Source: Entomoplasma ellychniae (lineage in GTDB: Bacteria; Bacillota_I; Bacilli_A; Mycoplasmatales; Mycoplasmataceae). Taken from it: a stretch of 64,000 nucleotides of DNA. Where the stretch lies: positions 496,001-560,000 of the forward strand of contig NZ_PHND01000001.1 of assembly GCF_002930155.1 (NCBI RefSeq), written 5' to 3'. Within the stretch, counting starts at the first letter, position 1, and every line of letters starts with the position of its first letter. Below, piece by piece: positions 31,139 to 53,803 of the stretch. The translations under genes and the position numbers were made by a program. The notes beneath the pieces were generated by a model. The model ran no database searches. It was not told the DNA's origin and saw only the letters and a program-made list of their open reading frames with translations.

Positions 31139-32671
31139 CTAATTTTCTCAGTTATTAACTTTCATGTTTTTGTCAACCAAGTCTTCAAAACTATTTTTAA
31201 AAGGTTTAATTTTGAAAATTTCTTCTTGCACTAATCACATTATAACAACAAATAAGATTGAAGTTATAAATATCATTGTGAATATTAAACCACCAGACTC
31301 AACTCAATTAGTCTTAAGCTCTCGAGATTTTATTAAATCCGGAACAAGAAAAACAAGTAATCCAAAAATATCAACAATTGTAAAAGCAATTAAACTTATT
31401 ATAGAACATGGTCAAAATCCTTTTTGTTTTTCTAAATCAATTTTTTTAGTAAATCTATTTACCATCGCAGCAACTATTAAAGATGTTAAAAGCCAAAATT
31501 GAAGAACTACAGCAACTGAAGCCATTTGTCCAATATAAGTCATAGCTAGGGAATTATTTGCAGTTTTGCTTGTTATTCCTTGGTAATCCCCATTACTGAC
31601 CAAAACAGCGCAGATTACAAGTGCTGCAAAGAACAAATATGAAACAGTTGATTGAAATATAGCTGCAAATTTAATTTTATTTTTAACATTTGGCATATAA
31701 ACTAATTTCATATTATGATCAGATACCATGCTTGTTATTCCAAAATGAGTAAACATATTAACGTTTAATAAATAAATTGTTGTCATTATCCCTAAAGTAA
31801 TAACTGTAGCAACTTTTGTCGCTGCGCTATCTTTTTTTGGTTCTCCCAATGAAATTACTCTAATTAAAACAGATTGTATACTTCCATCACCACCCATAAA
31901 AAGTGATATTGCCATTAAAAAGTAAAAAATTGAAATAAAAATTAAACCCATGATTATTGCTTTTCCAACTACTTCTTTATTTTTAATATTTTTTTGTTTA
32001 TTAGCTGCAAATGTATATCCATCAAATGAGAATAAAATTGCTCCAAAACCAGCAAACATATTTCATGTTGTTGCATCACCAGTAGAATTTAAATTTCAAT
32101 TATTTTTACTAAAAATCGCTAGAATAAAACCAGCAAAAAAAGCTACTATAAGTGGTATGTATCTTATTAGTAAGCTTCAAAGTTGAAGTGATTTTGAAAA
32201 CTTACTTGCTTTCAAATTTAATATAACACCCATGATATATAGACTTGCACCAATTATCAAAAATATTAATAATAATTGATATGGCAGTAATTTAGCTCCC
32301 ACCATTTCTAAAAAATATGTTATCGTTGCTGCTACAAATATTGCTTGATATGAAGGCATATATATAAATATATAAAATATTGAATACAAAGATGCAACTT
32401 TTCTACTTATAAAAATTCTAGATCAATTACTTGTTGTTCCGTTTCCACCGTCTATAGTAGATCTAGCAATTTCTATAAATGTTACAAATGATATAACACA
32501 AATAAAACCTATTACTAGTCATAAAATAACTGATATTAATGGGTTTTTTGTCTGTTCTATTAATTCTTTATTTTTAAGGTAAATACCACTCCCTACGCAA
32601 ATTCCTATTATTAATAAGAATAAACTTCAAAATTCATAACATTTAGAATTTTTGTCAACTTTTTTAAACAT
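31139..32671 (-). CDS. APC-family amino acid permease
   Basis: A 510-residue transporter with about 12 hydrophobic spans. The first span carries the APC glycine motif IIGICVGSGIYLKNKE. A second typical segment is GAILFSFDGYTFAANKQKNIKNKE, the TM6 region of APC carriers. The specificity cannot be read from sequence. The start has AGAGAAGAGAAAAAA ahead of ATG. It follows the terminator of the HU-domain gene and runs into pgsA. Confidence 0.9.
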
Positions 32672-32753: not shown

Positions 32754-34172
32754 TTATTTTGAAAGTTCTTGTTTAACTTTGTGCATATAAACAATTATTT
32801 CTTTTTTAGTCATGTCGCGCAAGTTAATATCACTTAAACTTTTTTTTAAGTTTTTTTCAGTTGCAATTTTTCTAATTGAATTTGCGTGTTTTTGTAATTC
32901 AGATCTGGTTTCTTCAATTGAATCAGATCCATCTAATTTAGCTCTTTCTTGTGTTGACATTTTTGAATTTAATTGACTAGGTTTTTTTTCTTTTAAATTT
33001 TTTTCATATTTTTTTAGTAACTCTTCTGCTGATTGCTGATTTTTTTCAACTTTAGGTTTAGATGTTGATTTTGTTTTTTCTTCAATTATAAAATCATTAA
33101 CTTTTTCATCAACTATAGTTTTATCCATTTCAACTTGTTTATTTACAAAATATAAACCTGTTCAAGTTTGTTTTGTCATTTCATCTTTAAGGTGTTTTGC
33201 TGCTTTAAACTTAATTGTGTTTGACGCTTCTATATCAAGCTGTTGTCCTGTTAAAGGATTAATTCCTTGTCTTGCATCTTTATGTTGAGAAATAAACTTT
33301 CCGAAATTGTTAATAATAACTTCTTCTCTTAAGTTTATTTTATCTCCAATAATTTTAAAAATTACTTCAATAGTATTTTTCATATATGATTTTTTCTCAT
33401 TAGGGAAAACTTCATATAGTTTTTTTAAAATATCTGCTTTTGAAACTTGTTCATAATGTTTTTTTGTAACTTGAACTGTTTCAAAAGATGTTTTAGCTGA
33501 TGAATTTGAAATTGGTTTAACATTAGCTTCTTTTGTTAATTTTTCAGACTTTATTTTTGCTGGTTTAGCAGAAACTTGTTTTTCAACTTTTTGTTTTTTT
33601 GGATTAGCTATAAGTGTATCTTCTTGTTTAACTTCTTGGACAATAACTGGTTTTTCAACTTTTTGTTTTTTTGTCTTTAGTTTAACTGGTTTTTCTTCAA
33701 CTAAAGGTTCTTGTTTAACTTCTTGGACAATAACTGGTTTTTCAACTTTTTGTTTAACTTCAATTAATTCAAAATCCTCATCTTTTTCACTAATGATTCT
33801 GTTAAATCTATTTTCCCTTCTAATTGAGAAAAATATTAATTGAATGTACAAAATTAAAAACAAAACTGTTGCTCAATTTAAAATCATATCAAACAATACT
33901 GGTAATGCAACCTCAGTACCAAATACTGATTTGAATTGTATAAAAGATTTAAAACCAATTGGTCCTACAATTGATTGCAATATGTTAAAACCATTAAATC
34001 ATTTTTCATTAGTTCCTATGATTAGTTGATTGATTTTTTCTAATCATTCTTGATTTCCTAAGGTAAGTTGATTAGTTACTTTAAAAACTATGATAATTAA
34101 AATTATAACTATTAATTGAAAGAATAAACTTCATGAGTTCTTGTGTTTTTGATTACTTTTTACGAATGACAT
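32754..34172 (-). CDS. Membrane-anchored HU/IHF-like DNA-binding protein
   Basis: A 472-residue protein made of: an N-terminal membrane helix (residues about 15-31), an outside loop, a second helix (about 93-116), and a basic cytoplasmic linker. The linker has an imperfect repeat (KQKVEKPVIVQEVKQE at 140-155 and 169-184, a third partial copy near 193). Then comes an HU-like domain at about 243-335 with the signatures NNFGKF and INPLTGQQLDIEASNTIKFK. A Lys/Glu-rich tail ends it. HU domains bind DNA, so the protein likely tethers the nucleoid to the membrane. AAAAGGAGACACAT precedes the ATG. Two in-frame TGA codons encode Trp near the middle. Confidence 0.85.
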
Positions 34173-34220: not shown

Positions 34221-36092
34221 TTAGTTTGAATAGTTATTTTTTAAGTAAAATAGTAACATTTGTATATCTGAAGGGTTAACACCAGTAATTCTTGATGCTT
34301 GACCAATATTTATGGGTTTTACTTTTATTAATTTTTGCCTAGCCTCTGTAGCTAGATTTTCAACTAAATCATACTTAAGATCATCAGGAATTTGCTTTTT
34401 TTCTAACTTTATTAATCTTTCAACAACTTTTTTTTCTGTGTTAATATATCCTTCAAATCTTGTTTCTATAACAAGCGATTGAAGTTGCAATTCACTTAAT
34501 TTTTTAAGTGAATCAAAATATGGTACTAACTCTTTTACGTTAACTGTTGGTATTTTAACTAGTTCTAATCCACTATATCCATGATTAATATTTGCTTGAT
34601 TTAACTCTCCAAGTCTAATTGCTAAATCTGATTTGGGTGTAAATCGCGTTACTTTTAACTCGTCAATTGCAGCTTTTATTTCTTTTTCAAAAATCAAAAA
34701 ATTATTATATTCATCATCATTGATTAATCCAATATCATACCCAATTTTTTTAAGTCTGTTTTCAGCATTATCATTTCTTAATAATAATCTATGTTCAGCT
34801 CTACTTGTTAATAATCTGTACGGTTCTCAAACACCTTTATTAATTAAATCATCTATCATAACCCCAATGTAGGCTTGATCTCTTCTTAAAATTAAAGGTT
34901 CGCTTTTATTAATTTTTCTAACTGCATTGATACCAGCCATTAATCCTTGCCCTGCCGCTTCTTCATATCCACTTGTTCCATTTATTTGCCCGGCGGTGAA
35001 AAGATTTGAAATGTTTTTTAGTTCTAATGTTGGTTTTAGTTGCATAGGATTTATACAATCATACTCAATAGCATAAGCTCAACTTTTAACTTCTGCTTTT
35101 TCAAAACCAGGTAAAGATCTAATCATTAATAATTGAACATCAATTGGCATTGATGTTGAAAATCCTTGAATATATCAAGCATCACCCAATTTTGATTCTG
35201 GTTCAATAAAAATTTGATGTGTTTCTTTAGTTGAAAACCTTACTATCTTATCTTCAAAACTCGGGCAATATCTTGGGCCAATAGATTCTATAACCCCTGA
35301 ATACATAGCTGACCTGTGAAGATTGTCTTCTATTATTTTTTTTGTTTTTTTTGTTGAATGAATTAAATAACATAATTCTTGGTCTTCAATTTTTGTAAAA
35401 TTTTTAGTTGAAAAGCTAAATGCTAATTCTTTTGATGTTCCCGGTTCTTTTTGTGCTTTTGATACATCTACAGAATTTTTATAAACTCTTGCAGGTGTTC
35501 CTGTTTTAAATCTAAACAACTCAATATCATGAGCTTTCAAAGATTCAGAAATGCCATTAGTAGTAATTTCATCATTTGGTCCAGAAGAATATTTATCTTC
35601 CCCTTTTAATATTTCTGATTTTAAATATGTTCCTGTTGTTAAAATAACAACATCAGATTCAATTAATTTTTTATTTGTTAAATAAACCCCTTTTACGGTG
35701 TTATCTTCTATTTTTAAATCAATAACAACTTCAGATATTAAATCAAGATTTTCTTGGTTCTTAATGATTTTTAACATATATTTAGAATATTCATCTTTAT
35801 CAGATTGAACTCTTATTGCTCAAACACCAGGCCCTCTTGATGAATTAAGCAACTTCGTTTGAAGGGCTGTTGCATCTGCTGCTTTAGCCATCTCACCACC
35901 AAGAGCATCAATTTCTCGAACCACTATTCCTTTTGCCGGTCCACCAACACTTGGATTACATGGCATTGCTGCTATTTTATTTTCGTAAAGATTAATTAAA
36001 GCTGTTTTTTTATTTAGTCGTGCACAAGCTAATGCTGCTTCAACACCTGCATGCCCACCACCAACAACAATAATGTCATATTTATTTTCCAT
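34221..36092 (-). CDS. mnmG: tRNA uridine 5-carboxymethylaminomethyl modification enzyme MnmG
   Basis: A 623-residue FAD-dependent enzyme that with MnmE modifies U34 of tRNAs reading split codon boxes. FAD motif [13 protein letters not shown] at the N-terminus, then the GidA motifs [14 protein letters not shown] and [14 protein letters not shown]. The C-terminal helical domain ends [20 protein letters not shown]. The ATG follows AAAGGTATTAATGCT. Its partner MnmE is at 57257-58615 on the other side of the origin. Confidence 0.97.
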
Positions 36093-36186: not shown

Positions 36187-38160
36187 TTATTCAGCATCTT
36201 CTTTAGATTCTTCAACTTTAATTTCTAAAACAGGTTCTTCAGGAGTAAGTTTTGCTTTTTGCTCAACAACTTCTGGAGGTAATTTTTTATTTTTGTGAAT
36301 GTAATCAATTTGTTCTGCAGTTATTGTTTCAAGAACTCTTAATGATTCAGCAAGTAATTCTAAAGTATCCATGTTTTCTTTGATAACTTTTAAAGATATT
36401 ATGTATGACTCTTCTAAAATTTTAGAAATTTCAGCATCAATTCTAGCCGCAGTTTCATCTGAATATGTTCCTTCAATCTTACCATATGACTCTTCAGCCA
36501 TTGTCAAGAATTTAGTCATACCCAATGAAGACATACCAAATTGAACAACCATTCTTCTTGCAATGTTTGTAGCTTTATCTAAATCATCATGAGCACCTGT
36601 TGTTACATTGTCTTTACCAAACTTAATTTCTTCAGCAGCGCGACCACCAAGATACCCAGCAATATTTGCTAATAAATCTTTTTTAGATGAAAATACTGTT
36701 TCATCTTTTGGAGTCATAATTGTATACCCACCAGCATTACCACGTGGAATGATAGTTACCTTTTGCACCTTAGATGCACTATCTAATTTTAAACCAATTA
36801 ATGCATGCCCAGATTCGTGATAAGAAACAATATCTTTATCAAGTTTTGTCATGGCTCTTGATTTTTTAGCCGGTCCACCAACTACACGATCAATGGCTTC
36901 ATCAATTTCAACAATACTAATAATGTTTTTGTTTTCTCTAACCATTAATATTGCTGCTTCATTTAAAACGTTTTCAAGTTGTGCCCCAGAAAACCCAGGA
37001 GTTCTTTCAGCAACTCTATATCAATCAACTGTTTTGTCAATTTTTTTGCCTTTTGCATGCAATTCTAAAATTGATTTACGTTCTTTAATATCTGGTAAAG
37101 TAACTTGAATAACTCTATCAAAACGACCTGGCCTTAATAATGCTGGATCTAATACGTCTGCACGGTTTGTTGCAGCCATAACAATAATTCCTGAGTTAGT
37201 TCCAAAACCATCCATTTCAACTAATAGTTGGTTAAGAGTTTGTTCACTTCCAGCACCACCGATATTTCCATTTCTTTTTCTACCAACAGCATCAATTTCA
37301 TCAATAAAAATAATGGCAGGTGCGGTTTTTTTTGCATCACTAAACATTTCACGAACACGACTTGCTCCAACTCCAACAAACATTTCTTCAAATTCTGAAC
37401 CAGCTATTGAAAAGAAGGAAACTCCAGCTTCACCAGCAACAGCTTTAGCTAAAAGTGTTTTACCAGTTCCTGGTGGACCTTCCATAAGAACACCTTTTGG
37501 GGCTCTTGCTCCAGCTTCTTCATATTTTGTTGGATTTTTTAAGTAATCAACTAATTCAATTAACTCGGATTTATCTTCTTCTATTCCAGCAACATCTGAA
37601 AATTTAACTAATGATTTTTCAGCACGAGCTCTGTTTTTTCCCATACCAAATATACCACCCGATGCAGAACCTGCTCCAGCAGAGCTTTTCATCATAAAGT
37701 AAATTAAACTACCACAAACAACTATCATTAATAACATTGGCAATAATGAAGATAACAATGCTACTCAAGTTTGTCCTGTGTATTGCAAAGCCTCTCATAT
37801 TTTACCAACAGTAACAGTTGTTCCGGCATCAGTTTTTATTTCTAATGAAATGTTACTTGTTTGTATATATGCTTTAAATTTAACATATCTAGCAACACCA
37901 TCTTCTCCTGTTATTTGATGAAGACCAGTAACAATTGAAGTATTGTATGCATTATTATAAACAATAACATTTGCTCAAACTGGGTTATCTTTAGGGTTAG
38001 GCGTTGGAGCAGAAGCTATGATTCATTTTTCTAATTGCGCTCAATTTATTTTTTCTGTTGTTCCTTCACTTGAAACAGCCACTATTGCAGATATTATTAA
38101 TATTGCTGCGATAATTATAATTCATGCTCACAGTGTTGATTTTGATTTTTTGTTAGTCAT
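36187..38160 (-). CDS. ftsH: ATP-dependent zinc metalloprotease FtsH
   Basis: A 657-residue membrane protease that degrades misassembled membrane and regulatory proteins. Membrane helices lie at about residues 10-28 and 132-157. The AAA module has Walker A GPPGTGKT at 228, [12 protein letters not shown], and [23 protein letters not shown]. The zinc motif HESGH is at 448. The C-terminal tail is Glu/Lys-rich. TGA encodes several Trp in the N-terminal part. Ribosome site AAGGAAGTTCTA. It is next to tilS, as in Bacillus. Confidence 0.97.
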
Positions 38161-51146: not shown

Positions 51147-51173
51147 AAGACCTTCCATTTTGAAAGGTCTTTT
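51145..51173. terminator. Bidirectional terminator between MreB-like gene and dnaN
   Basis: Stem AAAAGACCTT/AAGGTCTTTT with a 9-base loop, ending both convergent genes. Confidence 0.85.
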
Positions 51174-52281
51174 ATGCTCTTGGTAAAATGATTTGTTTTA
51201 ATTTTGGTTCTTCTTCAGAAGAAATAACAGCCATTCTTGAAGGTAATGAAAATTTAATTTCTAAATCTTCACAATCAAATGTTTTAATTGCTTCTAAAAT
51301 AAATCTTGTATTAAATTTAACTTCTTCAATTTCTTCACCGCCAAACTCAAAATCATTAAAAGTTTCTTCATATTTAACTGAATCAACTGTTGTTTTAAGT
51401 GTTATCTCATTTTTTTTAATGTTTAAATTTATTGTGGGGTCTGATGATTCAAAAGGTAATTCAAATCTGTTTAGCAACTTTAATATTTTTTTTGTTTTGA
51501 CTTTTATTGATGTTCCAAAAACAGATGGGAAAGCAGACTCAACATCAGGGTAATTACCATCGACTAAAATTGATTGAAAAGTTTTGTTATCAAAAACAAA
51601 AGTTGTGTAGTTATCAAAAACAACAATTTTTAATTTTTTTACATTCTCAATCAACTTTATTAATTCTGTTAATGTTTTGTGGGGAATTATTATATTTATT
51701 TTTTCACCCTGAGTATTGATTGGTATTTTCTTTAAAGATATTTTAAATAAATCTGTTGCAGAAAAAACAATTGAATCTTCTTTTGTCTTTAAATTTAAAC
51801 CAGTTAGTACAGTTCTTTCTTTATAAGGGTTTATTGAATTAATTAATTGATTAATTGTGTTTTTAAACTCTACTGGTGAAAGTGTTATTTCAAGTCCGTT
51901 TTCAACAAAACCAAGTAATGGAAAGTCTTCTGGATCTAGTAAACCAATTTTTAAAGATGACTTTTCTGTAATTATTTCTAATTCACTTTCTTCAAAAACA
52001 CTCAATTTAATAAATTGATTTTCAAGTTTTCTCAAAGTATCAATTATAAATTTTGGCTTGACCAATATAGTTCCAGGGGTTATAATTTCAAGATCTGAAT
52101 TTTGTTTATATAATTCAACTTTAAAACTTGTTGAATTATTTGTCGAAATAATTGTTAGTTTATCTACACCAACTTCTATTAAAACACCCGTTGTAGCTGG
52201 AGACAAACTTTTTGGATCAATAATTTTACTAGCACTGTTAATACCATCTAAAAAAGCTTGTCTGTTAATTTTAATATTCAT
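51172..52281 (-). CDS. dnaN: DNA polymerase III beta sliding clamp
   Basis: A 369-residue clamp of the three-domain DnaN family. Typical stretches: FLDGINSASKIIDPKSLSP, the domain 2 NPYKERTVLTGLNL (usual form E-x-R-x-x-L-x-G-V), and ESAFPSVFG. The C-terminal KLKQIILPRA matches the family ending (MPMRL/LPVR type) that lines the peptide pocket. It follows dnaA by about 200 bases and is transcribed in the same direction. Confidence 0.96.
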   Translation of the reverse strand: MNIKINRQAFLDGINSASKIIDPKSLSPATTGVLIEVGVDKLTIISTNNSTSFKVELYKQNSDLEIITPGTILVKPKFIIDTLRKLENQFIKLSVFEESELEIITEKSSLKIGLLDPEDFPLLGFVENGLEITLSPVEFKNTINQLINSINPYKERTVLTGLNLKTKEDSIVFSATDLFKISLKKIPINTQGEKINIIIPHKTLTELIKLIENVKKLKIVVFDNYTTFVFDNKTFQSILVDGNYPDVESAFPSVFGTSIKVKTKKILKLLNRFELPFESSDPTINLNIKKNEITLKTTVDSVKYEETFNDFEFGGEEIEEVKFNTRFILEAIKTFDCEDLEIKFSLPSRMAVISSEEEPKLKQIILPRA

Positions 52282-52480: not shown

Positions 52481-53803
52481 CTATTTCATTATTTCATTTT
52501 TTCAAGTATCAATTAATTTTTTAAACTTTTTGTCTTCGTAAATGTTTTTTTCAATCTTTGATATAGCACTTAACACTGTGCTATGATCTCTACCACCAAA
52601 TTCCGAACCAATTTGAGTAGAAGTGTGATTTAATAGTATTTTAACAAAGAACATAGCTACATGTCTTGCGTCCTTAATAGCGGTCGTTCTAGCTTTTCCA
52701 TCAATTGCTTTAACACTTACACCAAACTTGTCACCAATAACCTCTTTTATTCTTTTAACATTTAATTTACCCAAATTCGATGAAGGAATGTCTCTAAAAA
52801 AATCAACAACTTCATCCAATGTTATTTTACTATCAACAGGATTACTCATAACTAATAATTCTAATCTGTTAACTAAACTTTTCAACTTCCTTGCATCTCC
52901 ACCGAAATTATTGGCCAAAAATTTAATAGCAGCAGGCTCAACACCTCTTTTTAATCTGAATTCGCCAATTCTAAGTTTTAAAATATCTTCAGCAGTTTGA
53001 GGATCTAAAGTTTCAACACAAACTGACAAACCAGAATTAAATCTAGTTATCATCCTTCTTTCAAAACCATTTAAAGATTCAGGGTTCTTATCACTAGAAA
53101 AAGCTAGCTTTTTCCCGTTTTCCAAAAAATTGTTAATTATAAAAAACAAAAACTCATTAGTTTTATCTCTTTTTGTTAAGAAGTGAACATCATCAATAAT
53201 AAAAACATCATTTTTTAAAATGTCATTTTTAAACTTTTCAATATCTACATCTCCACTATTCAAAACACTTACAACCTGAGAAGTAAACTCATCAGCTTTT
53301 AAATATAAAACTTTATTATTTGTAGATTTGTCTTTAATAAAATTAGTTATTGATTCTAATAAGTGTGTTTTACCCAAACCAGAATCTCCATAAATGAACA
53401 ATGGGTTAAAAACAGAATTATCTACACTTTCAGAAAAATATTTAGCAGCAATAAAAGCTTGTTGATTGCTTTTACCAATAACAAAATTTTCAAATAATTG
53501 ACCACTTTTAATAAAAGATAAATCATTTTGTGCTTCGTGTTCAATTTTTGGTAAATTCTTTGTAGAAAAAAACAACAACTCAAAATCACCATTTATATAT
53601 GTGGATAAAAAAGTTTTTATTTGACCACTTATTTGATTTAAAAAAGATAAAGCTAAAGTAGATTTTGCTTCAATTATAAATTCTTTGGAATTTTTTTTAT
53701 AAAGGTTAGTAAATGGCAAAAACTCATTTTTAATTTCTTGATCAACAGTTTTATCTAAATACAACTCTGACAATACTTTTTGTCAAACAACACTCAATTC
53801 CAT
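52481..53803 (-). CDS. dnaA: Chromosomal replication initiator DnaA
   Basis: A 440-residue AAA+ initiator. Domain I is followed by Walker A GDSGLGKTHLLE near residue 139 and Walker B FIIDDVHFLT near 201. The DNA-binding domain IV has the signature DARHVAMFFVK and GGRDHSTVLSAISKIE. The start MELSVVWQKV was chosen because the Trp is TGA and the ATG follows AAAGGTTTGTTTTT. The last six residues (WKNEIMK) lie beyond another TGA. A perfect DnaA box on the minus strand lies inside the gene (53600-53608). Confidence 0.97.
53600..53608 (-). promoter_or_regulatory. Perfect DnaA box inside dnaA
   Basis: TGTGGATAA on the plus strand is TTATCCACA on the minus strand, an exact match to the consensus. It lies within the dnaA coding region. 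Confidence 0.55.

Follow-up and report, generated by a model that had tools for sequence, protein, structure and literature searches.

A membrane-anchored HU protein of Entomoplasma ellychniae as a candidate DNA-membrane tether, with a C-terminal module shared by ribosomal and membrane proteins

HU proteins are normally soluble and about 90 residues long, and they bind DNA without sequence specificity. A 64,000-nucleotide stretch of the Entomoplasma ellychniae genome, here called the window, contains a gene that was predicted from its sequence to encode an HU domain fused to a pair of membrane helices, which raises the question of what an HU domain would do at the membrane. The window protein was compared with profile, sequence, and structure databases and with related genomes of the Mycoplasmatales. 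Judged from these comparisons, DNA-membrane tethering would be its likeliest role.

Gene structure and genomic context

The gene is located on the minus strand at positions 32754 to 34172. When TGA is read as tryptophan, the open reading frame is uninterrupted over 472 residues and includes five internal TGA codons; under translation table 11 the same frame is fragmented, leaving no full-length frame. An AAGGAG ribosome-binding site immediately precedes the ATG. The upstream neighbors are mnmG (34221-36092), directly downstream of which the gene lies, and ftsH (36187-38160); on the other side, an amino-acid permease gene (31139-32671) follows after a short gap. The features assigned to the protein are as follows.

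32754..34172, minus strand: whole gene, encoding under genetic code 4 the membrane-anchored HU protein of 472 aa
34074..34139, minus strand: membrane helix 1, residues about 12-33 (hydropathy peak 2.66)
33912..34073, minus strand: predicted extracytoplasmic loop, residues 34-87 (alignments; topology from the positive-inside rule)
33825..33911, minus strand: membrane helix 2, residues about 88-116 (hydropathy, alignment)
33447..33824, minus strand: flexible linker rich in K, E, V, and P with KQKVEKPVIVQEVKQE repeats, residues 117-242 (sequence, repeat search)
33168..33446, minus strand: HU domain, residues 243-335 (Pfam, PDB sequences, AF2, Foldseek)
33222..33263, minus strand: HU beta-arm INPLTGQQLDIEAS with conserved N-P, residues 304-317 (sequence, alignment)
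33033..33167, minus strand: second linker, residues 336-380 (sequence)
32985..33032, minus strand: tail motif A, a short helix SAEELLKKYEKNLKEK that precedes most tail copies, residues 381-396 (alignments, model)
32757..32960, minus strand: tail motif B, a conserved helical module, residues 405-472 (searches, alignments, model)

The original prediction had also placed the gene about 20 kb from oriC. With dnaN at 51172-52281 and dnaA at 52481-53803 of the 64-kb window, the expected origin is about 18 to 20 kb away, and the distance therefore stands. The special link to the origin that it had suggested does not, because conserved mnmG synteny accounts for the position, HU reads no sequence, and paralogues lie far from this locus. 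The accompanying remark on a cell poor in segregation genes holds only in part, as SMC is present in the genome.

An intact HU domain

Residues 244 to 332 match the Pfam family PF00216 (E = 5.5e-18; score of 65.4 bits, cut-off 22.4), and a search of PDB sequences with the window protein returned HU and IHF only. The AlphaFold (AF2) model of residues 226 to 347, for which the underlying alignment consisted of phage HU sequences from a profile search, displays the HU fold, with two helices, a three-stranded sheet bearing a long arm, and a helix at the C terminus, and has pLDDT values above 90 in the core; when viral contigs were searched with the HU part as a single sequence, no match was obtained. 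Foldseek gave 38 PDB matches to the HU model at E ≤ 0.001, with HU/IHF-type folds on top. The best match was HU of Spiroplasma melliferum (5l8z; E = 1.7e-7), and TM-scores to IHF chains reached 0.86. The presence of an HU domain within the protein, as originally proposed, is thus borne out by both profile and structure comparison. More specialized profiles were not matched: the protein scored 52.6 bits against a cut-off of 111 for the NCBIfam equivalogs of IHF alpha and beta, and 12.3 bits against 26 for the CCDC81-type HU profile PF18174.

The domain retains the N-P tip, the FG.F core, and the KFK strand of HU proteins, and the tip of the arm keeps the intercalating proline (N305-P306). It has GINP and FKAAK where the soluble HU of the same genome reads GINPLT and FKPAK; the isoleucine in GINP and the alanine in FKAAK are not signs of decay, since they are typical of HU in this family, with the soluble HU of the genome as one example. 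Some arginines of the arm have been lost (HKDARQG against ERAAREG). The genome contains exactly two HU genes, one for the membrane HU and a separate one for the soluble HU, and hence a pairing partner for the membrane HU exists. The window protein itself is not a free HU, being 472 residues long and having two membrane helices, compared with about 90 residues for a stand-alone soluble HU.

Membrane helices, loop, and linkers

Hydropathy analysis agrees with the two predicted membrane helices, with segments at about residues 12-33 and 88-116. In the alignment, helix 2 begins with a conserved PV/IFWDLLINW motif (FDMILNW in the window protein), and the loop between the helices features the conserved motifs G..EW, WF, and GPIGFKSF.QF. 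Conservation of this loop is strong: ten aligned sequences share W58, F59, G70, P71, G73, S76, P91, D95, N99, and W100 as invariant residues. Basic residues precede helix 1 and follow helix 2, so that, according to the positive-inside rule, the N- and C-terminal ends are both predicted to be cytoplasmic.

The first linker contains a 24-nt unit in three copies (at 33573, 33645, and 33732) that are 96% identical. Of its earlier description as a repeat-bearing basic linker, the repeats are therefore well founded, whereas the basic character is weak, with a net charge of +6 over residues 131-242.

Conservation of the domain order

The order two helices-linker-HU was found in 12/12 examined genomes from three genera, comprising every Mesoplasma genome (seven) and every genome from the M. 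photuris/A. multilocale genus (four), together with that of E. ellychniae. Because the order recurs in all of them and the gene adjoins mnmG where this was checked, the architecture is not a chance fusion. Specifically, the orthologues at L111, L112, L113, and L117 (Mesoplasma and M. photuris) are located immediately 3' of mnmG. The survey of orthologues that the original prediction had called for thus shows that the fusion of helices and HU is old and has been retained. When 60 genomes of the family were searched, strong matches to the modelled helix domain came from these three genera only. Mesoplasma genomes have several diverged paralogues at other loci, and genome G008 has two membrane HU copies, one with a broken helix region and the other intact. 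Most membrane HU orthologues have no tail, so the tail is dispensable for the HU-membrane function; in G021 a membrane HU is present and bS6 is tailed.

Two other arrangements were observed. Membrane proteins at L039, L043, L045, L046, L078, L079, and L097 are ordered helices-tail-HU; where their HU arms were read, the N-P tip is lost (NIKTG, DIKTG, or DLKTG), and as a result their HU domains may no longer kink DNA. In the tail-less relative G009 (L030), the near-neighbor genes 1114-1854 and 2137-2823 encode proteins of 246 and 228 aa in which HU stands behind non-membrane N-terminal regions.

A conserved helical module at the C terminus

When the window protein was compared with 60 relatives, three parts matched independently, namely, the helices, the HU domain, and the last 100 residues, the latter with approximately 45 to 58% identity to many other proteins. 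The description of the C terminus as a charged tail thus falls short: residues 381-472 hold a conserved helical module of about 70 residues that is common to ribosomal and other proteins. In the 68-residue tail core, 13 positions are invariant across 18 diverse copies and 21 across a set of 10 sequences, while the linkers diverge. Among the conserved positions, the polar ones (R, K, D-G-S, E, R, Q-K, N-L-R-D, and T-K-K-E) look like a putative interaction surface. The net charge of the core is +4 over 68 residues. No tail member exceeded a Pfam cut-off, and NCBIfam and PHROG gave no match to the tail of the window protein. The model of the tail is all-helical at moderate confidence (pLDDT of 74), and Foldseek found no significant match to it in the PDB and no Rho-like fold.

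Tails were found in 17 of 298 Mycoplasmatales genomes, all from one family and five genera, i.e., the genus of E. ellychniae, Mesoplasma, Williamsoniiplasma, the M. photuris/A. multilocale genus, and Spiroplasma sp. TIUS-1; weak matches in G035 and G068, covering 22 residues in a transposase-like frame, were discarded. E values between hosts mostly range from 1e-14 to 1e-34. As identified by reading the proteins and by Pfam, the hosts are bS6, bL20, uS5, bS16, PTS EIIC, FtsH, and soluble HU; further hosts are two-helix membrane proteins lacking HU and membrane proteins in which the tail precedes a diverged HU. Each of the 17 genomes has at least one tailed ribosomal protein (bS6 in 11, bL20 in 7, bS16 in 3, and uS5 in 1). 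With bL20 as a control, open frames measure 279 to 390 aa with the tail and 117 to 131 aa without it. At least one tailed membrane protein is present in 12/17 genomes, and the remaining five (G008, G016, G017, G021, and G031) have ribosomal hosts only. In nearly all hosts the tail is in frame, C-terminal or nearly so, and placed behind a long flexible linker. The tail hosts of E. ellychniae are the window protein, bS6 (269 aa; L031, C1:616500-620500, 1444-2253), and bL20 (285 aa; L032, C1:738500-742500, 1307-2164).

Several single cases were recorded in addition. In Williamsoniiplasma, an FtsH protease of 737 aa (L092 1249-3462) has a diverged tail, which the FtsH of the window lacks, and a soluble HU of 215 aa (L099 1092-1739) is tailed and has no membrane helices. 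In Acholeplasma multilocale (L081 3500-4204), the reading frame shifts in the linker between bS16 and its tail, which reflects an assembly error or else a gene that is broken or recoded. An amino-acid permease of M. photuris (L103 1374-3188) has a degenerate tail-like end (E = 7e-4). Two further ideas about the tail were set aside. Loss of the MreB cytoskeleton does not hold strictly as its cause: tails occur in Spiroplasma TIUS-1 along with five full MreB genes, although no strong MreB was seen in the other four tail-bearing genera. A role as a protease tag is disfavored by the tail on FtsH (L092) itself.

Exchange of the tail between host proteins

In a tree of the tails, built from only 70 columns and with many forks unresolved, copies from one genus group together whatever their host protein, much more than expected by chance (9 changes compared with 23.0 after shuffling, with 0 of 200 shuffles as low). 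Sister tails are often on unlike hosts, such as Mesoplasma bS6 and two-helix anchors, or the bS6 and bL20 of E. ellychniae. The tail is therefore passed on from one host protein to another within a lineage. In Spiroplasma sp. TIUS-1, linker and tail of uS5 (L015 1495-2895) and bL20 (L063 1495-2664) are 95% identical over 241 aa, the result of recent copying between two ribosomal protein genes. Copying within a lineage is expected either if all copies must fit one partner or if the copies are recent. At two Williamsoniiplasma loci (L047 2619-4803 and L048 1380-3472), a tailed two-helix anchor lies immediately 3' of a tailed bL20, and this adjacency is a possible route for passage of the tail between the two.

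Proposed function and alternative interpretations

We lean, by a modest degree, toward a DNA-membrane tether whose tail serves for docking within a tethering arrangement shared by ribosomes, membrane, and nucleoid. The two helices would fix the protein in the membrane and leave its N and C termini in the cytoplasm, as suggested by the charge distribution. The HU domain would sit on a flexible linker of about 125 residues and could form a dimer with itself or with the soluble HU. Going by the anatomy of the protein and the established biochemistry of HU, this dimer would clamp chromosomal DNA without sequence specificity and thereby keep nearby DNA at the membrane. The second flexible linker would carry the small helical docking module, and self-association of this module or a common partner could bring ribosomes, membrane proteins, and nucleoid together. 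The chromosome-membrane tether of the original prediction is supported by the anatomy (an HU with an N305-P306 arm, two helices, and an order kept in all 12 genomes) and stays the favored guess; the origin link that went with it is unsupported. Points that weigh against the overall reading are the lost arginines of the HU arm, the missing N-P motif of the tail-in-middle relatives, the lack of a tail in most orthologues, the five genomes with ribosomal hosts only, and a tail model of moderate confidence that matched no known fold.

For the membrane-bound HU, two other functions were considered. A signalling or gene-regulatory protein, in which the loop senses and HU alters local DNA structure or transcription in place of holding the chromosome mechanically, would explain why the residues that are invariant in and around the loop exceed the needs of a pure anchor and why each Mesoplasma genome has several diverged paralogues. 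However, HU binding is not sequence-specific, and neither Pfam nor NCBIfam revealed a catalytic or known sensor domain in the window protein, which makes such a role improbable. Even less probable is an HU segment that chiefly provides a dimerization platform, with the soluble HU or among paralogues, and binds little DNA of its own: arm residues have drifted, and the N-P tip is gone from the related tail-in-middle proteins L039, L043, L045, and L046, but the window HU retains tip, core, and strand in an intact fold.

The tail is best read as a putative docking domain, because its hosts belong to large or fixed structures (ribosome, membrane, and nucleoid) and the module is held at a distance on a flexible linker. 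As ribosomal proteins, here bS6 and bL20, end in the same module, the window protein probably joins a shared arrangement. A direct tail-to-tail bridge between ribosome and membrane is not general, since five genomes have no tailed membrane protein; a tail-less common partner or nucleic-acid binding would be more general. We put forward only tentatively a single network in which the module links ribosomes (bS6, bL20, bS16, and uS5), membrane proteins (PTS EIIC, FtsH, and two-helix anchors), and the nucleoid (HU), with the window protein as a three-way node of membrane, DNA, and module. Rather unlikely, in our estimate, is a nucleic-acid-binding tail of the helix-extension-helix type, like the N-terminal domain of Rho, with which the protein would grip DNA or RNA at the membrane through two sites and from which other tailed hosts would simply gain affinity for RNA or DNA. 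Sub-threshold Rho_N matches (E = 0.0022 for the PTS tail and 5.4e-5 for the best of 18 members) point in this direction, as do the three best places of a Rho_N search of 60 genomes, all of them tail modules, and the presence of HU and ribosomal proteins among the hosts. On the other hand, no tail in these 60 genomes exceeded the PF07498 cut-off (best, 23 bits against 24.9), just 2 of 18 members matched, Foldseek retrieved no Rho-like fold with the tail model of moderate confidence, and the tail is just mildly basic. A mobile or neutral coding cassette, spread without function by recombination between gene ends, would agree with the grouping by genus across unrelated hosts and with the clearly mobile copies in TIUS-1. 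We give it very little weight, given a core that is strongly conserved next to diverging linkers, its retention in frame on essential ribosomal proteins in 17/17 genomes, at or near the C terminus in nearly all hosts, and its occurrence on proteins from three cell compartments.

If tethering is its role, the membrane HU of three genera is a concrete candidate for how wall-less bacteria hold and divide their chromosome. Within one lineage, a single module is carried by four different ribosomal proteins as well as by a sugar transporter, a protease, an HU, and membrane anchors; this looks like an organizing principle, which would connect translation, nucleoid, and membrane.

Comparison with known systems

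With the HU/IHF superfamily (PF00216), the window protein shares the fold, the N-P tip of the beta-arm, and the FG.F core; it differs in that HU forms part of a larger membrane protein (472 aa) and that the arm arginines are partly replaced. The CCDC81-type HU proteins of Bacteroidetes (PF18174) contain a membrane helix and a SPOR domain in addition to HU, and a link between nucleoid and envelope has been proposed for them. They resemble the window protein in that the HU fold is part of a membrane protein, whereas the window protein has a classical PF00216 HU, two N-terminal helices, and no SPOR domain and belongs to wall-less cells. The EAGR-box of the mycoplasma terminal organelle is a short module found in several unlike structural proteins of one mollicute lineage. 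The tail resembles it in being a short module spread across unlike proteins; the EAGR sequence is unrelated and is not known from ribosomal proteins. Rho_N (PF07498) has a weak profile likeness to some tails over their final 40 residues, below the cut-off everywhere.

The literature search, which covered sources outside subscription, yielded no paper that describes either a mollicute membrane HU or the shared tail. The nearest report concerns Mycoplasma pneumoniae, in which ribosomal proteins including S6 carry long, mostly disordered extensions whose disruption affects fitness (PMC9534751). These are likewise long additions to mollicute ribosomal proteins, S6 among them; unlike the tail described here, the main text of that report presents no module common to ribosomal proteins, HU, and membrane proteins. 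What is new about the window protein as an HU protein is that a classical HU fold is carried by a two-helix anchor. The shared tail, a previously unnamed module for which no described counterpart was found, is its most unusual part.
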